Origin: an uncultured Oscillospiraceae bacterium
GTDB taxonomy: Bacteria; Bacillota; Clostridia; Oscillospirales; Oscillospiraceae
NCBI GenBank assembly: GCA_934572465.1
Contig: CAKTLG010000022.1
Span: 1 to 32,669 of the forward strand
Direction of reading: 5' to 3'
DNA: 32,669 nucleotides
Shown here: in pieces, positions 1 through 32,669 of the stretch
Numbering within the stretch: position 1 is the first letter of the stretch
Layout of the letters: each line of letters begins with the position of its first letter
Notes under the pieces: generated by a model
The model's database searches: none
What the model saw: only the letters and a program-made list of their open reading frames with translations
What the model was told of the DNA's origin: nothing
Program-made: the position numbers and the translations under genes

Positions 1-1307
1 ACGTATTCCGCCTGGATCTGGTCGATGCCGAAGCCGATCATCAGGTTCGGCACGACGTCGGCCTCCTTTTCCGTCTCGCGGATGATCTGGATGGCCTTGT
101 CGATGTCAAGCAGGATGCGCTTGAGGCCCTTGAGCAGATGCAGCTTGTCCTGCCGCTTTTTGAGCACGAAGTACACGCGGCGCCTGACGCTCTCGGTCCT
201 CCATGCGCACCACTCGTCCAAAAGCTCGCGCACGCCCATCACGCGCGGCATACCGGCGATGAGCACGTTGAAATTGCACGACGCCGTGTCCTGAAGCGTC
301 GTGGCCTTGAAAAGCTTCTGCATGAGCTTGTCGGGATCGGTGCCGCGCTTGAGGTCGATCGTCAGCTTAAGGCCCGAGAGGTCGGTCTCGTCGCGCATGT
401 CGGAGATCTCCTTCACCTTGCCGGCCTTGATGAGCTCGGCGACCTTGTCCATAATGGCCTCGGTCGTGGTGGTATAGGGGATCTCGTAGATCTCGATGAG
501 GTTGTCCTTTTTGTCGTAGCGCCAGCGGGCGCGCACCTTTACGCCGCCGCGTCCGGTATTGTAAATATCTTCAATGGCGCGCGCGTCGTACAGCACCTCG
601 CCGCCGGTGGGGAAATCGGGCGCGAGCAGCGTTTCGCTGATGCGCGCCTCGGGATTTTTGAGAAACGCGATCGTCGTGTCGCACACCTCGCCCAGATTGA
701 AGCCGCACAACTGGCTCGCCATGCCGACGGCGATGCCCTGATTGGCCGAGACCAGGATATTGGGAAAGGTCGTCGGCAGCAGCGCCGGCTCTTTCATCGA
801 GTTATCATAGTTGTCGACAAAATCGACGGTATCGGAATCGATATCGCGGAAAAGCTCGGCGCAGATGGGCGCGAGCTTGGCTTCCGTATAGCGGCTGGCC
901 GCCCACGCCATATCGCGCGAATAGACCTTGCCGAAGTTGCCCTTCGAGTCGACGAACGGGTGCAGCAGCGCGCCGTAGCCTTTGGAAAGGCGCACCATCG
1001 TGTCATAGATGGCGGCGTCGCCGTGGGGGTTGAGGCGCATCGTCTGGCCGACGATGTTCGCGCTCTTCGTGCGCGCGCCGGTCAGCAGCCCCATCTTGTA
1101 CATCGTGTACAGAAGCTTTCTGTGCGAGGGCTTGAAGCCGTCGATTTCCGGAATGGCGCGCGAAACGATGACGGACATCGCGTAGGGCATGTAGTTTGCC
1201 TCCAGCGTGTCCGTGATATGCTGCTCCACCACGTCCGCGTGCAGGCCCATGACGTTCGGGTCTGCGGCGCGGTGGGCCTGTCTGGGTGCCTTGTCGCTTT
1301 TTTTCAT
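1..1307 (-). CDS. parC: DNA topoisomerase IV / gyrase subunit A (ParC/GyrA family), C-terminus outside window
   Basis: Type IIA topoisomerase A subunit, which breaks and rejoins DNA through an active-site tyrosine. The visible 435 residues read leftward off the window. The N-terminal breakage-reunion domain is clear: PHGDAAIYD (residues 94-102) matches the quinolone-determining region, and AASRYTEAKL holds the catalytic Arg139-Tyr140 pair. The ATG at 1307 follows an AGAGG site. Two points are odd. The residue equivalent to E. coli GyrA Ser83 is Ala98, and no parE-like gene lies directly upstream, where a divergent csoR begins. GyrA and ParC cannot be separated without the missing C-terminal beta-pinwheel. 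I lean to ParC or a divergent clostridial paralogue because the sequence after the active site departs from typical GyrA. Confidence 0.9.
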   Translation of the reverse strand, partial: MKKSDKAPRQAHRAADPNVMGLHADVVEQHITDTLEANYMPYAMSVIVSRAIPEIDGFKPSHRKLLYTMYKMGLLTGARTKSANIVGQTMRLNPHGDAAIYDTMVRLSKGYGALLHPFVDSKGNFGKVYSRDMAWAASRYTEAKLAPICAELFRDIDSDTVDFVDNYDNSMKEPALLPTTFPNILVSANQGIAVGMASQLCGFNLGEVCDTTIAFLKNPEARISETLLAPDFPTGGEVLYDARAIEDIYNTGRGGVKVRARWRYDKKDNLIEIYEIPYTTTTEAIMDKVAELIKAGKVKEISDMRDETDLSGLKLTIDLKRGTDPDKLMQKLFKATTLQDTASCNFNVLIAGMPRVMGVRELLDEWCAWRTESVRRRVYFVLKKRQDKLHLLKGLKRILLDIDKAIQIIRETEKEADVVPNLMIGFGIDQIQAEY

Positions 1308-1325
1308 GCGTGTAACCTCTGCTCT

Positions 1326-1350
1326 CCGGCATTCTCGCTTCAAATGCCGG
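1326..1350 (-). promoter_or_regulatory. Leader hairpin just upstream of the topoisomerase ribosome binding site
   Basis: Perfect 8-bp inverted repeat (CCGGCATT / AATGCCGG) with a 9-nt loop, between the predicted promoter and the AGAGG site of the leftward topoisomerase gene. It has no T-tract, so it is more likely an mRNA 5' structure than a terminator. Its function is unknown. Confidence 0.45.
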
Positions 1351-1368
1351 TCATACTTTTTCAAATAT

Positions 1369-1397
1369 ATTCTACCACATTTCCCCCCGCCGCGCAA
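1369..1397 (-). promoter_or_regulatory. Promoter for the leftward topoisomerase gene
   Basis: On the minus strand, TTGCGC (1392-1397) and TAGAAT (1369-1374) are separated by 17 bp, with a TGTGG run just before the -10. This is a sigma-70/sigma-A type match placed about 62 bp upstream of the start codon. Confidence 0.6.
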
Positions 1398-1413
1398 GAC
1401 CGCGCCGCGCGTC

Positions 1414-1443
1414 TTGACAAGACGGGTGCAAAAAGCGTACAAT
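1414..1443 (+). promoter_or_regulatory. csoR promoter
   Basis: TTGACA (1414-1419) and TACAAT (1438-1443) with an 18-bp spacer, 31 bp upstream of the csoR start. The operator at 1448-1463 lies over the expected transcription start, which fits autorepression. Confidence 0.8.
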
Positions 1444-1447
1444 AGGA

Positions 1448-1463
1448 ATACCCCAACGGGTAT
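1448..1463 (+). promoter_or_regulatory. CsoR operator 1
   Basis: Perfect inverted repeat ATACCC-CAAC-GGGTAT. It resembles the ATACCC...GGGGTAT sites recognised by CsoR-family copper repressors such as that of B. subtilis copZA. It lies immediately downstream of the csoR -10 and runs up to the GGAGG ribosome binding site at 1464-1468, so binding would block initiation. Confidence 0.75.
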
Positions 1464-1474
1464 GGAGGTGCCTT

Positions 1475-1750
1475 ATGAGACAGTGCATGGACGCGGAGAA
1501 CCTGCATCGCAGGCTGAAAAAGATCATCGGGCAGGTACAGGCCATCGACCGCATGGTGGACGAGGATGTGCCCTGCGAGGATGTGCTCGCGCAGATCAAC
1601 GCGGCCAAGTCCGCGCTGCACGGCTGCGGCAAGGTGGTGCTCGAGGGCCACATCCGGCATTGCGTGCGCGACGGCATCGAGCACGGCGACGCAGACAAGA
1701 CGATCGAGAGCTTTACCAAGGCGGTCGAGCGCTTTTCCAACATGGGCTGA
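1475..1750 (+). CDS. csoR: CsoR/FrmR-family metal-sensing transcriptional repressor
   Basis: A 91-residue all-helical DUF156 protein. Family members bind operator DNA as tetramers and release it on binding Cu(I) or another inducer. The Cu(I)-type ligand triad is visible as Cys34, His59 and Cys63 (contexts VPCED and EGHIRHC), which favours a copper sensor over the formaldehyde-type FrmR branch. The ATG follows GGAGG at 1464-1468. A strong promoter and a matching operator lie just upstream, and two related operators flank the next promoter. CsoR therefore probably controls both itself and the downstream P-type ATPase. The metal is inferred from the triad and is not proven. Confidence 0.9.
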   Translation: MRQCMDAENLHRRLKKIIGQVQAIDRMVDEDVPCEDVLAQINAAKSALHGCGKVVLEGHIRHCVRDGIEHGDADKTIESFTKAVERFSNMG

Positions 1751-1822
1751 GCGCAGAGGGCGCTCCCCTTTCGCGCGCCCTTCTTGCGGCGCTTTTTCAG
1801 CAAACGCATACAAGGGACAGGG

Positions 1823-1850
1823 AGCGGCCTTGCGCCGCTTCTTTCTTTTT
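1823..1850 (+). terminator. Rho-independent terminator after csoR
   Basis: AGCGGC / GCCGCT stem (6 bp, 5-nt loop) followed by TCTTTCTTTTT. It separates csoR from the independently promoted ATPase gene. Confidence 0.6.
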
Positions 1851-1856
1851 GTCCTC

Positions 1857-1907
1857 TTGACAACCTATACCCCCATATGTATAATAAGCCCATACCCCTA
1901 CCAGTAT
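1857..1907 (+). promoter_or_regulatory. Consensus promoter of the P-type ATPase with two CsoR-like operators
   Basis: TTGACA (1857-1862) and TATAAT (1880-1885) with a 17-bp spacer, a full consensus match. Two copies of the csoR operator pattern are present. ATACCC-CCAT-ATGTAT (1867-1882) sits in the spacer and runs into the -10. ATACCC-CTAC-CAGTAT (1892-1907) covers the start site. Left half-sites are identical to that of the csoR operator, and right half-sites are degenerate. This implies tight metal-relieved repression of an intrinsically strong promoter. Confidence 0.8.
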
Positions 1908-1925
1908 AGAAAGGAGCTTCTTCCC

Positions 1926-3791
1926 GTGAAACAGACAATGGAAAAGCTGGAGCATTTTTTGTCGCTTGGCGGCACGAAAAAGGACGTCGCGCTGCTCGCG
2001 CTCTCAGGGATCGCGCTGCTCGTCAGCATTTTTGATCTCGTCCCCCTGCCGTTCGACGCGGCGTGGGTTGCGATCGTTCTGTGCGGCGTCCCCATTATTT
2101 TAGAGGCTGTCATCGGACTCGTCACGGCGTTCGACATCAAGGCCGACGTGCTCGTGTCGATGGCGCTGATCGCCTCGGTCTGCATCGGCGAGGTCGCCTT
2201 TATCATGCAGCTCGGCGCGCTGCTCGAGGAGCTGACGGTCGCCCGCGCCCGCGCGGGCATTGAAAAGCTCGTCCGCCTGACGCCGCAGGCCGCGCGCGTG
2301 CTGCGAGACGGCGGAGAAACGGTCGTTCCCGCGGAGGCTGTCGAGGCGGGCGCACTGCTGCGCGTGCTGCCCGGCGAGACCATCCCCGTCGACGGCGTGA
2401 TCGTCGCGGGACAGACCTCGGTCGATCAGGCGGTGATGACGGGCGAATCGCTGCCCGTCGACAAGACCGTTGGCGACGAGGTCGCCTCCGGCACGGTCAA
2501 CCGCTTCGGCGCGTTCGATATGCGGGCAACGAAGGTCGGCGAGGACAGCTCCATCCAGCGCATGATCCGCCTCGTGCAGTCCGCCGACGCGGGCAAAGCC
2601 AGGATCGTCGGCCTTGCCGACCGCTGGGCGACATGGATCGTCGTCATCGCGCTCACCGCCGCGGCGCTGACGTGGCTCATCACCGGCGAGATCATCCGCG
2701 CTGTGACGATCCTCGTCGTGTTCTGCCCCTGCGCGCTCGTGCTGGCCACACCGACCGCCATCATGGCCGCCATCGGCAACGCGACGAAGCACGGCTTCCT
2801 TGTGCGCGAGGGCGACGCGCTCGAGCGCCTCGCCGCCGTGACGCGCATCACCTTCGACAAGACCGGCACGCTGACCTATGGCCGTCCCGTGCCCGTGCGC
2901 ACCGTGAGCGTCTCCGACACGCTGGATGCGTCCGCGCTCGCGCGCCTGATCGCCGACGCCGAGCAGCTTTCCGAGCACCCACTCGGCAAAGCCGTGGTCG
3001 CCCGCTATCAGGAGGAAAACGCCGCGCCCCTCCCGCCTGCCAAAGACTTCGCCATGCTCCCCGGACGCGGTGTCTCCGCCGCCGTCGAGGGCAGGGCGGT
3101 GCTCGCGGGCAACCGCGCGCTGCTCGAGGAGCACGGCTGCGCCATACCGGATGCCGCGCTCGCGCAGGCGGATGGGCAGCTCGCGCAGGGCTGCACGGTC
3201 ATCTACGCGGCGGTGGACGGCGCGTTCGCAGGCTTCATCGCCCTGTCCGACACCGTGCGCGAGGAAAGCGCAGGCATGATCTCGCAGCTCGCGTCCCTTC
3301 AGGTGCGGCCCGTGCTGCTCACGGGCGACCATCCGAACGCCGCCGCGGCCATCGCCCGCCAGCTCGGCGTCGACGAGGTCCGCGCCCCCTGTCTGCCGGA
3401 GGATAAGCTGCAATACATCCGCGCCTGCCAGAACGCGGGCGAAAAGGTCTGCATGATCGGCGACGGCGTGAACGACGCGCCCGCGCTCAAGGCCGCGGAC
3501 GTCGGCATCGCCATGGGCGGCGTCGGCAGCGACATTGCCGTGGACGCCGCGGATATCGCCCTTGTCGACGACGAGGTGAAGGAGCTGCCGCACCTCATCG
3601 CGCTCTCCAAGCGCATGATGACCACCATCAAATGCAACATGGCGTTTTCCATGACGCTCAATTTCATCGCCATCGCGCTCGCCATCATCGGCACGCTCGA
3701 TCCCGTCGTCGGCGCGCTGGTGCACAATGCGGGCAGCGTGCTCGTCATCACAAATTCAGCGCTGCTGTTAAATTGGAGGAAAAAATCATGA
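1926..3791 (+). CDS. Heavy-metal translocating P1B-type ATPase without N-terminal metal-binding domain
   Basis: A 621-residue efflux pump of the cytoplasmic membrane. Landmarks in order are TGES (172-175) in the actuator domain, CPCALVLATPTA with the metal-site CPC at 267-269, the phosphorylated DKTGT (311-315), SEHPLGKA, and GDGVNDAP in the C-terminal part of the ATP-binding region. The usual N-terminal HMA (CxxC) domain is absent. The last membrane segment carries HNAGSVLVITNS instead of the MxxSS of copper pumps, so metal specificity is uncertain despite the CsoR context. The GTG start at 1926 is chosen because AAGGAG (1911-1916) is well spaced; ATG 1938 is an alternative. The stop overlaps the next start (ATGA). 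Confidence 0.92.
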   Translation: MKQTMEKLEHFLSLGGTKKDVALLALSGIALLVSIFDLVPLPFDAAWVAIVLCGVPIILEAVIGLVTAFDIKADVLVSMALIASVCIGEVAFIMQLGALLEELTVARARAGIEKLVRLTPQAARVLRDGGETVVPAEAVEAGALLRVLPGETIPVDGVIVAGQTSVDQAVMTGESLPVDKTVGDEVASGTVNRFGAFDMRATKVGEDSSIQRMIRLVQSADAGKARIVGLADRWATWIVVIALTAAALTWLITGEIIRAVTILVVFCPCALVLATPTAIMAAIGNATKHGFLVREGDALERLAAVTRITFDKTGTLTYGRPVPVRTVSVSDTLDASALARLIADAEQLSEHPLGKAVVARYQEENAAPLPPAKDFAMLPGRGVSAAVEGRAVLAGNRALLEEHGCAIPDAALAQADGQLAQGCTVIYAAVDGAFAGFIALSDTVREESAGMISQLASLQVRPVLLTGDHPNAAAAIARQLGVDEVRAPCLPEDKLQYIRACQNAGEKVCMIGDGVNDAPALKAADVGIAMGGVGSDIAVDAADIALVDDEVKELPHLIALSKRMMTTIKCNMAFSMTLNFIAIALAIIGTLDPVVGALVHNAGSVLVITNSALLLNWRKKS

Positions 3792-3955
3792 CCACCAAGA
3801 TCATCGCGCTCGTCATCGGCCTGCTCATTCTGTGCGCGGGGCTCTACTACCTCAGATCCGAGGGGAAGGACCCCGAATCGCGCAAAATCTACACGACCAC
3901 AAGCATCATCGGCGGCGCGATCGCCGCTGTCGCCGCGCTGCTGCTTTTCCTGTGA
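3788..3955 (+). CDS. 55-residue two-helix membrane protein coupled to the metal ATPase
   Basis: A small protein starting inside the ATPase stop codon (ATGA overlap), with its own GGAGG at 3775-3779, so it is probably translated with the pump. Two hydrophobic helices (about residues 4-22 and 37-54) are joined by a charged, basic-acidic linker (LRSEGKDPESRK). There are no Cys, His or Met clusters for metal binding apart from one Cys in helix 1. I do not recognise the family. The position suggests a regulatory or stabilising subunit of the ATPase, but this is inference. Confidence 0.75.
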   Translation: MTTKIIALVIGLLILCAGLYYLRSEGKDPESRKIYTTTSIIGGAIAAVAALLLFL

Positions 3956-3962
3956 GCGCAGA

Positions 3963-4005
3963 AAACGCGGCCGCTGCCTTTCGGACAGCGGCCGCGTTTC
4001 TTTTT
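3963..4005. terminator. Bidirectional terminator between the metal operon and the ECF locus
   Basis: Perfect 14-bp stem (3963-3976 with 3986-3999) and 9-nt loop. It is followed by TTTCTTTTT on the plus strand and TTTTCTG on the minus strand. It can end both the rightward metal operon and the leftward ECF operon. Confidence 0.85.
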
Positions 4006-4520
4006 CATCGGTTTTCCGCGTGAAGGCGCTCCATGAGCTTCCGCAGCGGCGGCAGCAGCACAAAGGCGAGCACCGCGTTTGATACGCAGTGGATCACATC
4101 GTACGGGATGCCGGAGATCCACCACGAAACCGCCATCCGCCACCCGCCGATAAAGAAATAGGGGATGGCGCACAGCGCGCCGAAGCACAGCCCGTGCAGC
4201 CCCGCGATGGCGGCCCAGAGCGCGCGGCTCGTCTCCTTTCGGAACGGCAGCGCGGCGAGCACCGCGAGGGGCCAGACATAGAGGTACATCAGGTTCCAAA
4301 TGCCCGCACCATAGAGCGCGATCTCCAGCAGCGCGAAGCCGAAGGCGGGATAGAGCGCCTTCGCGCCGTATAGGATCGTCGCCAGCAGCAAAAGCAGCGT
4401 CACCGGATGCACGTTCGGGATGACGCGCAGGCTCTCCTTTCCCGCGACCATCAGCGCGCAGATCAGCGACAGCTCCGCGATCTCGCGCGCGGTCAGGCGG
4501 GCGGCTTTACCAGCCGACAT
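4005..4520 (-). CDS. ECF transporter substrate-binding (S) component, likely corrinoid
   Basis: A 171-residue very hydrophobic protein with about five or six membrane helices. An N-terminal RLTAREIAELSLICALMVAGKE segment and PNVHPVTLLLLL are typical of ECF S components. S components bind a vitamin and dock onto a shared EcfA-EcfA'-EcfT module, which is not encoded here. Its start overlaps the end of the DUF4430 gene by 14 bp, which implies translational coupling; its own ribosome binding site is weak. Because the pair lies behind a cobalamin riboswitch, the substrate is probably cobalamin or a precursor. That assignment comes from context and not from binding residues. Confidence 0.82.
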   Translation of the reverse strand: MSAGKAARLTAREIAELSLICALMVAGKESLRVIPNVHPVTLLLLLATILYGAKALYPAFGFALLEIALYGAGIWNLMYLYVWPLAVLAALPFRKETSRALWAAIAGLHGLCFGALCAIPYFFIGGWRMAVSWWISGIPYDVIHCVSNAVLAFVLLPPLRKLMERLHAENR

Positions 4521-4905
4521 TCAGCACGAAATCGTACACATCGCCGTCCGCGACGGGCTGGCTGTCCACGCCGAGCTCGGCGAACGCGCCGTTGACGCTG
4601 TAGCCCCACCACTCCTGCTGGCTCTCGTCGGCGGTCTCGCCGTCAACGGTCAGCACGTAGAGGCCGTACTCGCTCTCGGTACCCTCAATGAGATCCTCCT
4701 GCTCGAGCGCGCCGCGCAGATACTCCGCGTCGGTGACGATGGTGTAGGACGTGTCGTCGCCGTTCAGGTGATCGATGTTGACGGTGATCTCCTTGCCGCC
4801 CTGCTGGGGCGCGGGCTTGGTGACCTGCCAGACGATAAGGGCCGCGACCGCCAGCACAAGGACGATCACGAGGGCGATGACGCCCTTGTTGGTTTTCTTC
4901 TGCAT
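4507..4905 (-). CDS. DUF4430 domain protein, membrane-anchored, likely extracellular corrinoid-capture partner
   Basis: 132 residues: a short basic N-terminus, one membrane helix at about residues 9-27, then an extracellular domain ending in DVYDFVLNVGW. QQEWWGYSVNG and the DG-x-YDF ending are typical of DUF4430, a fold shared with the C-terminal domain of transcobalamin/intrinsic factor. No lipobox cysteine follows the helix, so it is probably a signal-anchored protein and not a lipoprotein. AAGGAG precedes the ATG at 4905. The gene is first in a two-gene operon with the ECF S component, about 125 bp after a cobalamin riboswitch, so a role in delivering a corrinoid to the S component is inferred. 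Confidence 0.82.
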   Translation of the reverse strand: MQKKTNKGVIALVIVLVLAVAALIVWQVTKPAPQQGGKEITVNIDHLNGDDTSYTIVTDAEYLRGALEQEDLIEGTESEYGLYVLTVDGETADESQQEWWGYSVNGAFAELGVDSQPVADGDVYDFVLNVGW

Positions 4906-4935: not shown

Positions 4936-5030
4936 GCCGTACAAAGAAAGAAGAGACCGGCAGGCCGGAGAAACTCCGCCCTGCTGGGGAGTGTACTTTT
5001 TAGCCGAAGGTCCGCGGCGCTTTGTACGGC
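4936..5030 (-). promoter_or_regulatory. Candidate expression platform of the cobalamin riboswitch
   Basis: On the minus strand, a 23-nt hairpin (4961-4983; CGGAG/CTCCG plus CAGG/CCTG around a G-G mismatch) is followed by a pyrimidine-rich, U-containing run, as in a weak terminator. Around it an 11-bp perfect inverted repeat pairs CTTTGTACGGC (5020-5030) with its complement at 4936-4946. The first arm directly abuts the aptamer, so ligand binding could change its availability. The exact switching mechanism is not resolvable by eye. Confidence 0.5.
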
Positions 5031-5192
5031 ACTCGAGGCAGGTCTTCCGGCTCAGGCGTCCCCGTCCGTTTTCGCCTTCCCGGACTGCTCCAGTGGCATC
5101 ATGAAAACGGGCTCTTCCATTACGGCGGCGGCTCCGCTGGGGATTTGCACCCCGCTTCCCTGTTCGGCCGCCTTCCGGCGGCACCTCAAGTC
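5031..5192 (-). ncRNA. Cobalamin riboswitch
   Basis: Read on the minus strand, conserved aptamer blocks appear in order: GAGGTGCC, then AACAGGGAA, GGTGCAAATCCCC-GCGGAGCC, GTAATGG, a GCCACTGG block, GGGAAGGCG, and the closing GAGCCGGAAGACCTGCCT. These are the recognisable cores of the adenosylcobalamin-class aptamer, including the B12-box-like segment. It precedes the DUF4430 and ECF S-component genes and should lower their expression when corrinoid is abundant. Boundaries are approximate to a few nucleotides. Confidence 0.92.
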
Positions 5193-5269
5193 CTTATTGA
5201 ATTGTGCTGCGACAGGATATCACAAAACCCCCGCGCCGTCAAGCGGCGCAGGGGCGGAGTGAAAGCGCG

Positions 5270-25537: not shown

Positions 25538-27205
25538 TTACAGGCTCTTCTCGTAGCTCTCGATCATCTTCTTGAATGTGTGACCCGTACGACTTCTGAG
25601 ATTTTGGAGGACTTTTTCGGTTGTTTTCCCCGTAAAGATCTTGATTTGCAGGGACATTGTGCCGTCCGCATCGGGCGTGACAAAGATTTTGTCGATATAC
25701 TTCTCAACAAATTCCTTGTCGATCAGTCCCTTGACCGCATCCCGCTCCGCGTTTTTCAGGACCCTTCGGATGGTCTCGATCTGCTTTTTGTAGTCAGATG
25801 CGGAGTCACGCTGCTGGGTCAGCTCCATCAGCTCCTGCTGTGCCTCATCCAGTTCCTTGGCGCACTGCCTGTTCATGGAGAGGAAGTCTTTGTCCGACAG
25901 TTCGCCGAGGGCGTTATAGGTCAGCAGCTTCTGCTTTTTCTTTTCGATGGTCGTAATTTTCTGCTCCAGAGCTGTGATCTGCCGCCCCAGATCGCCGTCC
26001 CGGTCCAGGGATTTGTACATTTCCATGTACTCGTCCACCATGGCTTCGGCATCGTCCTCCGTCTCCCGGAAAACCTCCAGCAAAAGCGGCTTTAATTCTT
26101 CCTCGTAGATGGGAAAAGAGGCGCAGGCGCCCGCCCCGCTTTTGATTTTATTGCTGCATACCCACTTGCTGTTTTTGTTCCCCTGCTTGTCCTTGGATTC
26201 CCGGCGGTAATAAGCCGCGCCGCAGTCCGTACAAAACAGCTTGCCCGTCAAAAGGTTGGCGTGGTTGCAGATACCTTGACGTCCCTTCACGTCCTCGCTG
26301 CGCTTGCGCAGCACCTCGTTGGCCTTGTCCCACAGCGCCTCGGATACGATGGCGGGGACAATCTCGCCCGTTTCATCCTTGAACATGACCCACTCCTCCG
26401 GGGGCAAGAATTTCTGCTTCTTGGTGAACAGGTCAATGACCTTGACCTTGTTCCCCACATAGTACCCCTTATACTTGGGATTTGAAATCATACCGGACAT
26501 GGTGGTGTGGGCGATCTTTTTGCCGTTGTGGTTGCGGTAACCCCGTTTCCAAAACAGATTTTCGATCTGCTTCATGCTGGGCTGACCCGTGGCGTACAAC
26601 TCAAACAGTTCCCGCACCATGGGAGCCTCATCCTCGTCGATCACCAGCCGCCCGTTGTCCTTTCGGTAGCCGAAGATACGGCTGTTGCCCAGTACCACAC
26701 TGTTTTTGATGGCCTGCTGGTGTCCGAACTTCACACGGCTGGACAGTTTGCGCAGTTCGTCCTGGGCGATGCCGGACATGATGGTCAGGCGCAGCTCGCT
26801 GTCCTCGTCCAATGTGTTGATGTTATCATTCTGGAAGAACACCCCGACCCCGGCGTTCAGCAGTTCGCGGGTGTACTGGATGGAGTCCAGGGTGTTACGG
26901 GCGAAACGGGTGATCTCCTTGGTGATGATGAGGTCAAAGAGGCCGGCGCGGCCATCTTCTACCATGCGGTGGAAGTTTTCACGCTTTTTGGTGGTGGCGG
27001 CAGACAAGCCCTCGTCAATGTAGCCCTCCACATAGGTCCAGTTGGTATTTTTTCGGATCAGGTTTTCGTAGTATTGAATTTGGTTGCCCAGAGAATTGAG
27101 CTGTTCGTCGCTCTCGCTGGATACACGAGCGTAAAAGGTCACTCGCATAGGAATATCGTAGATAGTTTTCGTTTTCAGCATCTGCCGAATAGTGTGGATA
27201 TCCAT
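25538..27205 (-). CDS. Large serine recombinase
   Basis: 555 residues. The catalytic domain opens with VTFYARVSSESDEQ (Ser29 catalytic), followed by EGYIDEGLSA and ITRFARN. The recombinase domain continues to about 300. A zinc beta-ribbon follows (Cys325, Cys328, Cys350, Cys361), then a long coiled coil (about 405-490). Such enzymes integrate and excise elements between att sites. ATG 27205 follows GAGGG; the upstream in-frame residues overlap the promoter. It lies at the element edge, where integrases are usually found. Confidence 0.95.
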   Translation of the reverse strand: MDIHTIRQMLKTKTIYDIPMRVTFYARVSSESDEQLNSLGNQIQYYENLIRKNTNWTYVEGYIDEGLSAATTKKRENFHRMVEDGRAGLFDLIITKEITRFARNTLDSIQYTRELLNAGVGVFFQNDNINTLDEDSELRLTIMSGIAQDELRKLSSRVKFGHQQAIKNSVVLGNSRIFGYRKDNGRLVIDEDEAPMVRELFELYATGQPSMKQIENLFWKRGYRNHNGKKIAHTTMSGMISNPKYKGYYVGNKVKVIDLFTKKQKFLPPEEWVMFKDETGEIVPAIVSEALWDKANEVLRKRSEDVKGRQGICNHANLLTGKLFCTDCGAAYYRRESKDKQGNKNSKWVCSNKIKSGAGACASFPIYEEELKPLLLEVFRETEDDAEAMVDEYMEMYKSLDRDGDLGRQITALEQKITTIEKKKQKLLTYNALGELSDKDFLSMNRQCAKELDEAQQELMELTQQRDSASDYKKQIETIRRVLKNAERDAVKGLIDKEFVEKYIDKIFVTPDADGTMSLQIKIFTGKTTEKVLQNLRSRTGHTFKKMIESYEKSL

Positions 27206-27242
27206 AAGTACGCCCTCTCGTAAAGTTCGTTTTATCATGTTC

Positions 27243-27271
27243 ATTATAGCATTGTTGCAATAGCAAATCAA
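27243..27271 (-). promoter_or_regulatory. Promoter of the large serine recombinase
   Basis: Minus strand: TTGATT (27266-27271), 17 bp, TATAAT (27243-27248), about 38 bp before the start. Confidence 0.75.
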
Positions 27272-27290
27272 GCCTGTGCAAATATTTACA

Positions 27291-27318
27291 AAAATAGCGC
27301 AGTTCACCCGAACTGCGC
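27291..27318 (-). terminator. Terminator after the SHOCT-like gene
   Basis: Perfect 9-bp stem GCGCAGTTC / GAACTGCGC (27297-27318), with a TATTTTTG tail on the minus strand. Confidence 0.75.
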
Positions 27319-27874: not shown

Positions 27875-28831
27875 TTAGACCGCCAGAATGTAGTTGCAGA
27901 CCGTGACGTCCAGACGCCAATGGGACAGATGGAATACACTCACGGCCATCAGAGCCAGTCGGTTGTACGCGACGGGCAGGTTGTGTTCCAGAGCAAGCTT
28001 GCGGTTGAGCCCGCGCAGATAGTATATCCCATCTATCTGATCGTGATGCAGCTCCCTGCCGTTGTCCTTGAAGCGCACTTCCAGCTCGCGGATCAACTGT
28101 TCCCGAAACGCCGGGTCACGGATGGCGTCCAGATAATACAGATAGGCCCGCTTGGCCTGGCAGGCGCGCAGATAGTGCAGATCGATCTTGTTTTCCATTT
28201 CTTCCCGCGTAAAGAGATACTCATCGGCATCCTTTTCCTCAAAATAGGAACGGACGAAAGCAATGTCAGATGGGAGGATCCGCTGATACTGAATCTTCCC
28301 CCCTTTTCCTTTGACCCAAATGCACAGGTGACCGGATTTGTCTTTCACCAAATCACCGCCGCTGAGCTTCTGGTACTCTCGGCGGCGGAGTCCTACGCGC
28401 GACGCAAAGTCGTACAACCGAGGGGACGCCTCTCGCCGGGTATCCTTGCGGCTATCCGACGCCTTGGTCCCGCGGCTGCGGGTGTTTTGTGCCGTGTGTC
28501 TGACAGGCTTTTGGATCGTATCCATAGCAACATTCCAAACCCGGCAGACCCCCGCCAGATAGGTGTGGATCGTATCGGCGGAATAACCTTTCTCGATCAG
28601 AAAATCGGCATAATCCTGTATGTGCGGCTTGCAGTCATCAAAGTGCCGGCATTTATAATTTTCTTTGCACCAAAGTCCAAATTTGATGGCATGGTTCTTA
28701 TATTGCCGTTCGCTTTTTTTCGTGATCCTGACAACTTCTACGGGATTGCCGCTTTCGTCCTTTCCCGGAGACTTCAGATGTTTTGCTTCATTGTATGCGT
28801 GGGTGGATATTTCACATATCAGGCTTGCCAT
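27875..28831 (-). CDS. Atypical tyrosine recombinase
   Basis: 318 residues. The N-terminal SAM-like arm (about 35-105) includes KKSERQYKNHAIKFGLWCKEN and the catalytic domain follows. Candidate residues: Arg in SRVGLRRREYQKLS (about 149), Lys in WVKGKGGKIQ (about 177), His219-x2-Arg222 (LHYLRA), His304 in HLSHWRLDVT, and Tyr314 (CNYIL). About 80 residues separate HxxR from the last box, where canonical enzymes have about 25, so it carries an insertion. AGAAAGGA precedes the ATG. The 5' region is extremely hairpin-rich. Confidence 0.85.
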   Translation of the reverse strand: MASLICEISTHAYNEAKHLKSPGKDESGNPVEVVRITKKSERQYKNHAIKFGLWCKENYKCRHFDDCKPHIQDYADFLIEKGYSADTIHTYLAGVCRVWNVAMDTIQKPVRHTAQNTRSRGTKASDSRKDTRREASPRLYDFASRVGLRRREYQKLSGGDLVKDKSGHLCIWVKGKGGKIQYQRILPSDIAFVRSYFEEKDADEYLFTREEMENKIDLHYLRACQAKRAYLYYLDAIRDPAFREQLIRELEVRFKDNGRELHHDQIDGIYYLRGLNRKLALEHNLPVAYNRLALMAVSVFHLSHWRLDVTVCNYILAV

Positions 28832-28862
28832 GTAGTTCAGTCCTTTCTAATGATGAGATGCC

Positions 28863-29460
28863 TGTTTGTCATTGGCAAACAAGCCCAGCCTTGCGGCTTG
28901 TTAAATGCGTTACATATTTTTTTGTCATCGGGAAGAGTACGGCTCAAATTTGGATGAACCAAACTCTTTCCGAAGGGGAATATAGAAACCCAAGTATAAG
29001 CGGCTAACCAGACCACTTATACCCCTTAGCTGGTTATTTCCCCGCTCCCGCGGCAAATAACCAGCTGCAGATACCCGACATCCAAAGCAGGTCCCAATGA
29101 CGGGAGGCGTCCGGAATATGCGGTTCCAGAGTCTGAAAGCGGGTATCTGTTGGAAATGCGATATACTATTCTCCTGTCGATATCGCGGGACAAGGCTACC
29201 TTAACAGACGGATAAGCGTAGCAAACCGGTCGCAAGCGACATAATCCCAACAAGCCTTGTGGGCCTGCGCGGCGCGGGTGGCTGGCCCCGCCGCTGAGCG
29301 TTGTGTTCTCCTGACAATCACCCAAACAGGGAGTGTTTCGTCTCTTTACCCGTACTGACCCGCAGCCACGCGAATCAGGCACCATCACACGGGGTGCAGC
29401 GTGACACACTAAGCAGTGCCGAGCTTTTACAGCGTGACATGGGTTACAGCTGATTCCATG
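28863..29460 (-). ncRNA. Hairpin-dense, apparently noncoding region upstream of the tyrosine recombinase
   Basis: About 600 bp without a convincing gene. Inverted repeats, left to right: TGTTTG/CAAACA (from 28863), AACAAGCC/GGCTTGTT (28878-28902), a nested pair near 28925-28972, GTATAAGTGG/CCGCTTATAC (28994-29022), a 12-bp perfect stem with inner CCGC/GCGG (29028-29066), a 10-bp long-range stem (29068-29077 with 29140-29149), GCGATAT/ATATCGC (29158-29186), GCTAC..GTAGC with inner CTTA/TAAG (29195-29222), GTCG/CGAC, GCGGCGCGGG/CCCGCCGC and CATGG/CCATG. One stem pairs by G-U only on the minus strand, suggesting leftward transcription with the recombinase. RNA identity is unknown. Confidence 0.6.
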
Positions 29461-29480
29461 TCGATTTAAGAGAGATGCGA

Positions 29481-29524
29481 TATATATATAAAAAATCGAC
29501 AGGGGGCAATAGGCCTCCTGTCGA
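29481..29524 (-). promoter_or_regulatory. Hairpin and promoter-like sequence at the head of the structured region
   Basis: On the minus strand TCGACAGG/CCTGTCGA form an 8-bp stem followed by TTTTTTATATATA. This reads either as a terminator of upstream leftward transcription or, with TTGCCC (29504-29509) and TATATA (29481-29486) spaced 17 bp, as a promoter starting the structured RNA. The two readings cannot be separated by eye. A further GCCCGC-ATGA-GCGGGC hairpin lies at 29541-29556. Confidence 0.45.
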
Positions 29525-29574
29525 TGAATTTTCTGTGTTCGCCCGCATGAGCGGGCACATTGTAATTCTCTTTG

Positions 29575-29745
29575 ATGATCATTGTTCTGAGTCCAAATGA
29601 ATCAGAATTAAACTCTATGGATAATAAAAAAGTCGAAGCAACTATGAATAGACATAGTACACCTCGACGCAAACAAAAAAGAAAAGAAACAAATCGGCAA
29701 AAACTGCGATTGATTGAAACAGAGTGGGATAGCTTAAATCCCTGA
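29575..29745 (+). CDS. Possible small basic protein
   Basis: 56 codons from ATG 29575, or 42 from ATG 29617. The middle is strongly basic (TPRRKQKRKETNRQK) and the end acidic (ETEWDSLNP). No clear ribosome binding site precedes either start. It may be coding or a fortuitous frame in A-rich DNA. It is not similar to anything I recognise. Confidence 0.3.
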   Translation: MIIVLSPNESELNSMDNKKVEATMNRHSTPRRKQKRKETNRQKLRLIETEWDSLNP

Positions 29746-29769
29746 AAGATACAGTATGGCTATATTATA

Positions 29770-30252
29770 GCATCGATATCGTCGAGATGCAAGGCCCTTT
29801 TTCAAAATTACTGTGCCGAAAAATATTTGGACAAGGCCATTGAACACCAGTTTGAGATCATCCCAATCTCCTTGACTCCAATTCCCAGTATCGGCAAGGT
29901 CTACTCCGCCGGTATCATCGCCGAAATCGGCAACATCCATCGCTTTGACCCTCATGCCTCCGTCGCCAAATATGCCGGCCTTGTCTGGACACAGCACCAG
30001 TCCGGAGACTTCGAGGCTGAACATTCCAGAATGATTAAATCCGGCAACCGCTATCTCCGCTACTATCTGCTGGAAGCCGCCAACTCCGTGAGAAGATGCG
30101 ACTCCGAGTTCAGGCGCTACTATGACCTCAAGTTCCATGAGGTCAGCAAGTACCGGCACAAACGCGCACTCGCTTTAACTGCCAGAAACCTGGTTAGGTT
30201 GGTCTTTCGGCTGCTGAAGGACAACCGCCTGTATATCCCGCCGGATGGCTGA
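29770..30252 (+). pseudogene. IS110-family transposase, 5'-truncated
   Basis: Only the C-terminal third (about 150 residues) remains. IPSIGKVYSAGIIAEIGNIHRF and GNRYLRYYLLEAANSVR are the hallmark Transposase_20 segments. The N-terminal DEDD (RuvC-like) domain is missing, and upstream codons turn into unrelated sequence, so it cannot be active alone. The following 220 bp up to the resolvase show no gene, but may contain the element's 3' end. Confidence 0.88.
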
Positions 30253-30419: not shown

Positions 30420-31082
<663 letters not shown>

Positions 31083-31159
31083 CGCCGTCAAAAAGTGCGG
31101 TTTTTGTGATGAATACACACCAACGGCATACCTGCCTGTTGTTTATCTATTGGAAGTGT

Positions 31160-31363
31160 TTATTTTCCCCGCTTGTCACGCTCCATGGTCTCAGCAATGG
31201 CGCGCTTTGCAAAGGCGGCGCCGCTCTCGCCCATTGACTCAGCGTGGCGCTTTATTTCCTCATAGTAATCCGGCTCAAGCCGAATCCGCATTTCAGCAAA
31301 TTTGGAAAGGTATTTGGCGTTGGCCTTTTTTCGAGCTTCAGACAGCGGCTTCTTGTCCGGCAT
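31160..31363 (-). CDS. Ribbon-helix-helix-like DNA-binding protein
   Basis: 67 residues. A basic N-terminus (KKPLSEARKKANAKY) is followed by AEMRIRLEPDYYEEIKRHAESMGESGAAFAKRAIAETM, a beta-strand/helix/helix pattern of MetJ/Arc-type repressors. ATG 31363 is used; the ribosome binding site is weak. It is divergent from the promoter at 31409-31437, whose spacer holds a palindrome it could bind. Family assignment is by pattern. Confidence 0.75.
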   Translation of the reverse strand: MPDKKPLSEARKKANAKYLSKFAEMRIRLEPDYYEEIKRHAESMGESGAAFAKRAIAETMERDKRGK

Positions 31364-31408
31364 CTCTTTTGCACCGACCTTTCCAATCAAAATTTGCCGA
31401 GAACACGC

Positions 31409-31437
31409 TTGACACATGGGAACATGTGCGGTATACT
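31409..31437 (+). promoter_or_regulatory. Promoter with embedded palindromic operator
   Basis: TTGACA (31409-31414), 17 bp, TATACT (31432-31437). CACATG-GGAA-CATGTG, a perfect 16-bp palindrome (31413-31428), begins at the end of the -35 and lies within the spacer, so a bound protein would exclude polymerase. Candidate binder is the adjacent RHH-like protein. Confidence 0.75.
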
Positions 31438-31453
31438 ATACTCAAGTTAAAAA

Positions 31454-31657
31454 GTAGCAGCACGTAAGAGTTGCGACCTCCCACGTGCCTGCACAGGTGA
31501 TTAGGGCACCGGCACAGTAGTAAAACTACGCTACGGGAGTATTATATCCATTTCCGATCCATTGCGCAAGTCCCCATTTTGGGAGTGGTGGTAGAATGAG
31601 ACCTCCTTATGAATGTAGTGAAGCGCTATGCGGGTACCGACCTGCATGGCGCTTTTT
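31454..31657 (+). promoter_or_regulatory. Structured leader with terminator before the MazF-like gene
   Basis: About 270 nt of untranslated sequence. GTAGC (31454-31458) and GCTAC (31530-31534) could close a domain containing a GCACGT/ACGTGC and GTAGT/ACTAC hairpin. A 14-bp stem with two G-U pairs (31622-31635 with 31640-31653) and T-tract follows. The terminator stands between promoter and gene, which implies attenuation, although no ligand or protein target is evident. Confidence 0.6.
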
Positions 31658-31710
31658 GACTGCATTTTATGCGGCAAGGCGGCCTCCTGAGCCGCCGGAA
31701 AGGAAACTAT

Positions 31711-32085
31711 ATGGATAAGAAGATCGCTATTCACACGATGGAGCTTTGGCTCGCAAATCTGCCGGTCACACCCGGCCATGTCCAGCACGGCACCCATCCC
31801 GTCGTTATCGTGTCCAACGACGTGGCAAACAACTTCAGCCCCATCGTCACGGCCGTACCGCTGACGAGCAACCACAAGGCAGCAACCCTGCCGACGCACG
31901 TCTGCCTGCGCGGCTATGGCCTTGCGGCCACCAGCATCGCTAAGTGCGAGCAGGTCATGGCGCTGGACAAGTCGTGCCTCATTCGCCGTCTGGGCGAGGT
32001 CTCCGATTGGTATGACCGCCTCGCCATCCAGCACGCGCTGGCCGAGCAGCTCGGCATCGAGCTGCAGGTCAACCTCGCGGCGTAA
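31711..32085 (+). CDS. MazF/PemK-like protein with catalytic arginine replaced
   Basis: 124 residues. ELWLANLPVTPGHVQHGTHPVVIVSND, TAVPLTSNHK and LPTHVCL follow the MazF mRNA-interferase pattern. The arginine of the G-x-RP motif, required for cleavage, is His29 here, while the Thr of PLTS is kept (Thr52). No antitoxin gene lies upstream. So it may be an inactive or regulatory homologue. AAAGGAAA precedes ATG 31711. It is followed by a RecD-like helicase 15 bp on, in one operon. Confidence 0.85.
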   Translation: MDKKIAIHTMELWLANLPVTPGHVQHGTHPVVIVSNDVANNFSPIVTAVPLTSNHKAATLPTHVCLRGYGLAATSIAKCEQVMALDKSCLIRRLGEVSDWYDRLAIQHALAEQLGIELQVNLAA

Positions 32086-32100
32086 GGGGGGTGAGACAAT

Positions 32101-32669
32101 ATGGCGAAGACCTTTACGAACGACGAAAAGAGGGAAATCGAGGAAAAGGCGAAGTACATCCTCACTGCCATGGATGACATCGGCAAGAACGGGGACGCCT
32201 ACTGCACCGATGAGCAGCTGTTCCGCGCCAGCAAAGCGGTGAGGCCAAGCCTCACCGGACAGCGGTATCGCACCGATAAAGCCCTTCTGCTGCAAGCCGG
32301 TTTCCTCCATCAGGAGGGGTATCATCTGTATGCCAAACGGACGTGGGACTATGAGGTGACTGCGGCGGAGCGGCTCGCTGACATCCTTAAAGCCCCGGCT
32401 TTGCCGGTCATGGAGATCCCGAGGGAGCTCCGCGCCGGTGACATTCTCCTCAGCGAGCAGCAGCGCGAGGCGATCGAGCTGGCGCTGAACAGCCGCCTCT
32501 CCGTCATCCTCGGCGGCGCGGGCTGCGGCAAGACCACGCTCATTGAAGCCATCGTGCATTGCTTCAGAGAGCGCAATGACGCTTTTGTGCCGTATGTGGT
32601 CACCGCCCCGACCGGAAAGGCTGCGCGCAACCTCACCGAGCGCACCGGGATCGAGGCGCGCACGGTCCA
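32101..32669 (+). CDS. RecD-like/AAA_30 DNA helicase, 3' end outside window
   Basis: 189 residues visible. An N-terminal region of unknown fold (1-115) is followed by SEQQREAIELAL, the Walker A GGAGCGKTT (138-146) and APTGKAARNLTERTG, matching RecD/TraA superfamily 1 helicases. GGGGGGTGAG precedes the ATG. Later motifs are not visible. It is probably an element-encoded helicase acting in transfer or replication. Confidence 0.88.
   Translation, partial: MAKTFTNDEKREIEEKAKYILTAMDDIGKNGDAYCTDEQLFRASKAVRPSLTGQRYRTDKALLLQAGFLHQEGYHLYAKRTWDYEVTAAERLADILKAPALPVMEIPRELRAGDILLSEQQREAIELALNSRLSVILGGAGCGKTTLIEAIVHCFRERNDAFVPYVVTAPTGKAARNLTERTGIEARTV

Follow-up and report, generated by a model that had tools for sequence, protein, structure and literature searches.

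What does a stretch of about 0.9 kb do in front of a recombinase gene when it carries many inverted repeats and no convincing protein-coding sequence? The question is raised by contig CAKTLG010000022.1 of an uncultured Oscillospiraceae bacterium, whose entire 32,669-nt stretch is called the window here. A sequence-only reading had marked 28840–29524, some 600 bp, as a hairpin-rich noncoding region directly upstream of an atypical tyrosine recombinase (YR) gene, and had named three possible functions: an RNA that guides or regulates the recombinase, an attenuated leader, or a cluster of recombination sites. From sequence comparison and in silico folding, we favour, at a probability of about 0.48, the reading that an RNA and the YR form a ribonucleoprotein recombination module in integrase-carrying mobile elements, as 0.9 kb are conserved, covarying and predicted to be transcribed on the YR strand. 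The two elements in question are:

28832..29757, minus strand: structured noncoding region, a predicted RNA of about 0.9 kb, supported by conservation, lack of a coding signature and compensatory changes, its 5' end placed from a promoter-like sequence
27875..28831, minus strand: YR gene, 318 aa, with an insertion between the HxxR and H/W motifs; R149, K176, H219, R222, H304 and Y314 are present

The window's YR matches 1104 proteins at E ≤ 0.001. A well-conserved alignment of 30 YR sequences (the window's and 29 of 120 listed relatives) was used to fetch 60 loci (L numbers below; G numbers denote genomes), 59 from genomes and one viral. Among viral contigs a first scan confirmed no relatives and a second yielded only that one, L060; neither the plasmid nor the phage collection gave a DNA match. 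The fetched loci supplied a family set of 64 nonredundant YR genes, each of at least 270 codons.

Similarity between the window and L001 runs from 29740 through the end of the YR gene at 80% and halts at the YR stop codon. Identity per aligned position is the same in the noncoding part and in the gene, 80.4%. L009 shares the sequence downstream from about 29309 (88%), and its 5' part differs. The impression that the region holds no convincing gene held up under comparison. In its longest open reading frame (ORF; 29409–29026), substitutions between the window and L001 are spread evenly over the three codon positions (27, 29, 28), compared to 44, 38 and 106 in the YR gene; none of 14 gaps is a multiple of three, and the protein of this ORF aligns to L001 in two different frames. 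A hidden gene was rejected on the codon-position test. Just beyond the region lies a candidate promoter:

29764..29792, minus strand: promoter-like hexamers, TTGCAT-17-TATAAT, recognized by eye in the alignment with L001

The L001 counterpart reads TTGCAT-17-TATACT. These hexamers were missed by a scan (the first agrees at 3 of 6 positions) and are weak alone. Given the conservation to 29740 and the hexamers to 29792, the unit spans about 28832–29792; the noncoding character of the region originally marked stands, and its limits do not.

Folding of the minus strand, which had been proposed as a check, gave a structure for 28832–29530 that beats all 20 dinucleotide shuffles (z = −4.46), and the plus strand did likewise (z = −5.35). 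Both strands fold strongly, so folding energy in the window alone cannot pick the strand. In the 350 nt upstream of the start codon of 63 genes (L022, with too little upstream sequence, was left out), the median z was −4.51 on the sense strand and −3.53 on the antisense strand, compared to −0.80 inside genes. Values below −2 were obtained for 49, 46 and 8 of the 63, respectively.

The upstream regions of homologues show compensatory changes, as the sequence-only reading had suggested looking for. In five alignments, with structures predicted from those very alignments and some comprising just 2 to 4 sequences, one-sided changes that keep the pair (G-U type) affected 96 of 631 sense-strand pairs versus 47 of 564 antisense-strand pairs. 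Compensatory changes were present in 47 and 43 pairs, and broken cells numbered 86 and 93, on the sense and antisense strands; total consensus energy favoured the sense strand in all five. For the 3' module of the L014 group (eight chosen sequences), double-sided changes occur at 21 of 82 pairs, versus 5.5 in shuffles, for a structure derived from the alignment on which it was scored; when partners were slid by 1–3 columns as a control, 0 to 4 double-sided pairs were left. The landmark of the family lies within the structured region:

29028..29066, minus strand: hairpin H1 (AGCTGGTTATTT..AAATAACCAGCT), with a 12-bp perfect stem within 29028-29042/29052-29066

H1 has the form GGUUAUU...AAUAACC, with a covarying outer stem. 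Its sequences were chosen by a GGTTA/TAACC pattern that required seven or more inner pairs (26 of 42 were aligned), so that pairing in the seven innermost is a product of the selection. Across the 26 sequences, 48 cells change on both sides, compared to 18.9 in shuffles, and all seven of the non-selected pairs (six outer, one inner) change on both sides, each in at least two sequences.

H1 lies upstream of the YR gene, on its strand, in 46 of the 64 family genes, 42 recognized by the pattern and four (L020, L028, L039, L053) by a covariance model of H1 at E ≤ 0.01. When 16 genomes chosen as YR-bearing were searched with this model, 22 places were found at the same threshold, antisense duplicates dropped, in 14 genomes. 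Twenty of these adjoin a YR or a YR fragment; the other two are a decayed copy that keeps 26 nt of the YR gene (L142) and a match where a contig ends (L138). G406, with two YRs, gave no H1 match, and G414 gave weak ones only. In the family of G001, the YR occurs in 11 of 400 genomes (E ≤ 1e-15) and H1 in six (E ≤ 0.001), all six among the 11, with no H1 in the other 389. In the family of G404 (250 genomes), the YR occurs in seven (E ≤ 1e-30) and H1 in eight, with five shared. One caveat here is that the model's filters are stricter for sets of more than 40 genomes, and hence weak H1 copies may have been missed. The informative part of this co-occurrence is the near absence of H1 elsewhere. Of the three H1 genomes in the family of G404 that are not shared, two, G587 and G468 (L172, L173), were rejected as chance matches inside one kind of protein gene, and the third is that of L171.

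YR relatives L037, L040 and L108 have no H1, and L037 and L040 also have no folding signal in the 350 nt upstream.

These observations back the part of the original interpretation that assigns an RNA to the recombinase, given the compensatory changes, the sense G-U bias, the co-occurrence and the lack of an Rfam match (below). Neither of the two outcomes named beforehand as refuting, a lack of covarying pairs across homologues or an Rfam match to a known RNA, was encountered.

The protein itself is a tyrosine recombinase, and no curated model was found for its family. Matches to Pfam, NCBIfam and PHROGs were weak or under cut-off. Its AF2 model (pLDDT 87, pTM 0.63) has the core-binding and catalytic domain architecture of the tyrosine recombinase superfamily, and the nearest structures were Cre and integron integrase (2a3v among them), with low whole-protein TM-scores of ∼0.3. 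We take R149, K176, H219, R222, H304 and Y314 to be the catalytic R-K-HxxR-H/W-Y set. In an alignment of 63 of the 64 family proteins (L053, which contains Ns, was left out), all six are intact in 61, the exceptions being L018 (C149) and L078 (N219). The insertion noted from the sequence is found in this alignment as well: 46–112 residues, median 90, lie between R222 and H304, compared to about 22 in the equivalent interval of ordinary YRs. No PADLOC model matched except one, weakly (14.5 bits, to the YR of L014). In the window's YR, IS110 transposase domains are absent (Pfam, E ≤ 0.1) and the integron integrase model TIGR02249 has no match at E ≤ 1; L105 and L046 score 20 and 18.8 bits with that model, against a cut-off of 265.

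The RNA appears to consist of two parts. In the genus of G404, loci with YRs of two clades (45–47% identity) share ∼510–560 nt of 5' RNA at 85–92%, which then switches at one point to different 3' modules and YRs. The breakpoint, TTCTCAC|GGAC (near 4588–4596 in L014), is reused in relatives. L014 and L024 are similar downstream of it (67%) and not upstream, while L024 and L106 match at 90% over ∼495 nt upstream and only at 66% over ∼470 nt of their YR genes. From these two comparisons, the 3' module stays together with its YR, while exchange affects the 5' module. Such exchange could be produced by homologous recombination as well as by the YR. In L161 there is a 5' module with no YR; the sequence stops exactly at the breakpoint, presumably a contig end.

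A 3' module with compensatory changes also lies at L171:1469–1740, where the next long ORF encodes a calcineurin-like phosphoesterase.

Downstream of the window's YR gene lies a second recombinase:

25538..27307, minus strand: large serine recombinase (Resolvase, Recombinase and Zn ribbon domains)

Such a gene occurs within 3 kb downstream on the same strand in 19 of the 60 loci and on the opposite strand in none (tblastn with eight queries from these loci, E ≤ 1e-8), in a set where six loci have less than 3 kb downstream and loci are partly non-independent. These downstream enzymes belong to several subfamilies (with SpoVT_C, with DUF4368, or with neither). In L003 and L060 a serine recombinase lies upstream on the same strand, and in L039 and L053 it lies 950 nt upstream on the opposite strand. 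A second YR follows within 3 kb on the same strand in six loci and on the opposite strand in three.

Other features of the region, from its 5' end, are:

29726..29742, minus strand: hairpin GGGAT..ATCCC at the predicted 5' end, listed by the scan; L001 has a different stem at that place (by eye)
29626..29668, minus strand: terminator-like hairpin 1, then TTTTTT, seen by eye; kept in L001, absent from the scan list
29490..29525, minus strand: terminator-like hairpin 2, ATCGACAGGAGG..CCCCTGTCGAT plus a T run, seen by eye; in the scan list the stem stands for the plus strand alone
29190..29310, minus strand: core of the 5' part, highly conserved in alignments; L009 keeps the sequence from about here downstream
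29173-29181/29495-29503: 9-bp pair, an inverted repeat
29068-29077/29140-29149 (29068..29149), minus strand: long-range 10-bp stem CAGATACCCG/CGGGTATCTG, enclosing two hairpins
28992..29024, minus strand: hairpin H2 (GTATAAGTGG/CCGCTTATAC), arms at plus-strand 28994-29003/29013-29022
28878..28905, minus strand: TTTAAC, then hairpin H4, which ends 47 nt upstream of the start codon

All of the inverted repeats named from the sequence (12-bp, 10-bp long-range, 9-bp and the H2 arms) were located in the window. The remark that the H2 stem is G-U compatible on the minus strand only proved accurate: its single mismatch forms G-U on that strand alone, and L001 has GTATAGGTGG. In terminator-like hairpin 2, CGACAGG/CCTGTCG of the window becomes CGTCAGG/CCTGACG in L001, and one hairpin inside the 10-bp stem covaries from TCCC/GGGA to TTCC/GGAA (by eye). 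Of the 64 family genes, 20, the window's among them, have TTTAAC no more than 200 nt from the start.

How might such a module work? The predicted RNA would be transcribed on the YR strand from the promoter-like sequence near 29757. Its 3' third (H0-H1-H2-TTTAAC-H4), inherited with the YR clade, would bind the YR, and the bound RNA would license or direct strand exchange; the 5' part, swapped between YR clades, would be the variable, context-specific part. Several observations weigh against this model. The plus strand of the window folds as well as the minus strand, and in four of the five alignments the RNAalifold covariation term sides with the antisense strand. In 14 of 63 genes, z lies above −2 in the 350 nt upstream, and 18 of 64 have no H1 by either pattern or covariance model, two of which (L012, L022) have less than 1300 nt of upstream sequence. 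Outer pairs of H1 are unpaired in 6–10 of the 26 sequences, partly since some lack the bulge. Several of the genome matches are sequences from which the covariance model was built. L171, in the family of G404, has its 3' module with no YR within 1.5 kb, and in L020 H1 immediately precedes another small ORF, with the YR 2.6 kb further downstream. In many loci (26 displayed), finally, the structured part ends tens of nucleotides before the start codon with a ribosome-binding site in between, as in a leader.

The main rival builds on that last point. A cis-acting leader is in our judgement possible though doubtful. In this view the region would be a long mRNA leader in which two terminators come early and a structured 3' part governs expression of the YR and perhaps of the downstream integrase, for example by binding the YR protein. 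Such a leader would account for the position of the RNA directly upstream on the same strand, for the ribosome-binding site that follows the final hairpin in many loci, and for terminator-like hairpins 1 and 2, which come after the promoter-like sequence and before the remainder, the feature of an attenuated leader that was recovered here, by eye. It also accommodates L011, L018 and L043, where a small same-strand ORF stands between RNA and YR (those of L018 and L011 had no family match above cut-off). The attenuation proposal fits less well where other ORFs intervene: an opposite-strand ORF of 253 aa (methyltransferase-like, under cut-off) separates H1 and YR in L004, another opposite-strand ORF lies further on between them in L020, and in L021 a promoter-like sequence stands between RNA and YR. 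Together, the intervening ORFs in these five loci and the promoter-like sequence of L021 favour an RNA with its own identity, while a leader is still compatible with them. Moreover, 0.9 kb with many conserved parts far exceeds usual leaders, and no terminator or sequestered ribosome-binding site was seen by the YR start in window folds and alignments inspected by eye only. Rather unlikely, in our view, is that YR and RNA are a self-moving element, a unit of 1.2–1.9 kb, with the serine recombinase neighbourhood incidental. Similarity ends at the YR stop codon in L014/L016 as it does in window/L001, decayed copies and several copies per genome occur, and the common breakpoint marks the left edge of the 3' module. 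However, no empty site could be demonstrated when the genus of G404 was searched with the serine-recombinase flank, judged from the table of matches with L128 apart, or with the 5' module; the right junction of L019 is a fusion to another YR's 3' half, i.e. a rearrangement rather than a clean insertion, and the downstream serine recombinases all lie on the YR strand (19 to 0).

The helices could also reflect folded single-stranded DNA, an attC-like site recognized by the YR during conjugative transfer. The one-sided changes are compatible with such a site because G-T also pairs weakly in DNA, but we consider it quite improbable: the 16 genomes show no arrays of H1 and about one H1 per YR, the terminator-like T runs and promoter-like sequence point to RNA, and the structure extends over the entire 0.9 kb, more than one site needs. 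A cluster of recombination sites, as initially proposed, is disfavoured by this absence of arrays and by the distance between the GGTTA and TAACC arms, which varies from 14 (L034) to 65 nt (L054). YR cores have fixed spacers of about 6–8 bp, and a double-stranded recombination core was rejected given this variation; integron-like arrays were likewise rejected, none being seen in the 16 genomes. That an already known RNA, be it an intron, a ribozyme or a regulatory RNA, has gone unrecognized by eye here seems highly improbable. The region's size and branching do resemble those of large RNAs (introns, ornate RNAs), but at gathering thresholds no Rfam family matched the region in the window or in 16 relatives' loci, where families match elsewhere only; with permissive filters, 28700–29850 gave four matches, all far under threshold. 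Known Rfam RNAs (introns, riboswitches, ornate RNAs and others) were therefore rejected, in agreement with the sequence-only reading, which had recognized no RNA family. The boldest reading goes beyond the ribonucleoprotein module that we favour. It posits a new class of RNA-guided recombination, in which the 3' domain of the YR's large partner RNA would bind the protein and an exchangeable 5' domain would select the DNA partner, a second system beside the serine integrase of Clostridial integrative elements. We regard it as unlikely, with a guide or target match to DNA being hypothetical.

RNA partners are known for nucleases and IS110-type recombinases, and the bridge RNA region lies within the IS110 element, beside the recombinase gene. 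The bridge RNA partner of the IS110 recombinase is described in PMC11208158. The window resembles IS110/IS1111 in having a long noncoding RNA-like region tied to an adjoining recombinase gene, but here IS110 domains are absent from the enzyme, a tyrosine recombinase, the region measures ∼0.9 kb and often stands beside another integrase, and no guide loops are shown; the likeness is an analogy of layout, not membership. Another parallel is IscB, whose structured omega RNA (HEARO) lies immediately upstream of its protein partner's gene, as the predicted RNA does here, although in our case there is no Rfam match at threshold and the presumed partner is a recombinase rather than a nuclease. With integron integrase and attC the system shares a YR with an inserted segment, a conserved hairpin with a variable tip, and 2a3v among the nearest structures. 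It differs in having no hairpin arrays, in integrase models that score far under cut-off or do not match, and in a long structured region on the gene's sense strand. The large ornate RNAs GOLLD, ROOL and OLE are comparable in size to the region. Their folding is multi-branched (PMC12286853), a further likeness; the region, in contrast, has no Rfam match and is tied to one protein family. The regulators MrpR, YopR and SroF belong to the same fold class by structure search and are not known to have recombination activity, whereas catalytic residues are intact in nearly all family members here (61/63).

A literature search that barely covered preprints and subscription papers brought up no paper in which a tyrosine recombinase is linked to a structured RNA. 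PMC8040213 mentions 28 candidate RNAs in the vicinity of integrase, sortase or phage domains, one of which might be part of the RNA described here. Passages of PMC10910872 had no bearing on the question. The main text of PMC6429828 contains none of the terms integrase, recombinase and transposase. Should the RNA direct the enzyme, a widely used class of site-specific recombinases would gain programmability. Should it turn out to be a leader, this 0.9-kb RNA, with a hairpin found across the family, would still represent a new RNA family, and its function is readily testable.

Several neighbouring sequences deserve mention. On the plus strand, 29827–30252 encodes the C-terminal fragment of an IS110-family transposase (Transposase_20), which adjoins the promoter-like end of the RNA and falls outside the window/L001 similarity. 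Further along that strand, 30480–32667 carries a small serine recombinase, a PemK/MazF-like protein and the start of a long ORF with a GGAGCGKTT-type motif, and looks like the rest of a mobile element. A Cobalamin riboswitch (106.5 bits) lies at 5020–5203 on the minus strand. In L014 (5838–6060) and L015 (2222–2400), the sequence that separates the YR from the serine recombinase also seems, by eye, to be conserved and structured (ACTGAGGATACGGG..CCCGT..CTCAG). In L016, the gene that precedes the RNA (211–4026) encodes a large surface-type protein with Listeria-Bacteroides repeats, Big_3, cohesin and dockerin, and reading frames that resemble it by eye close the left flanks of L105, L119, L122 and L142.
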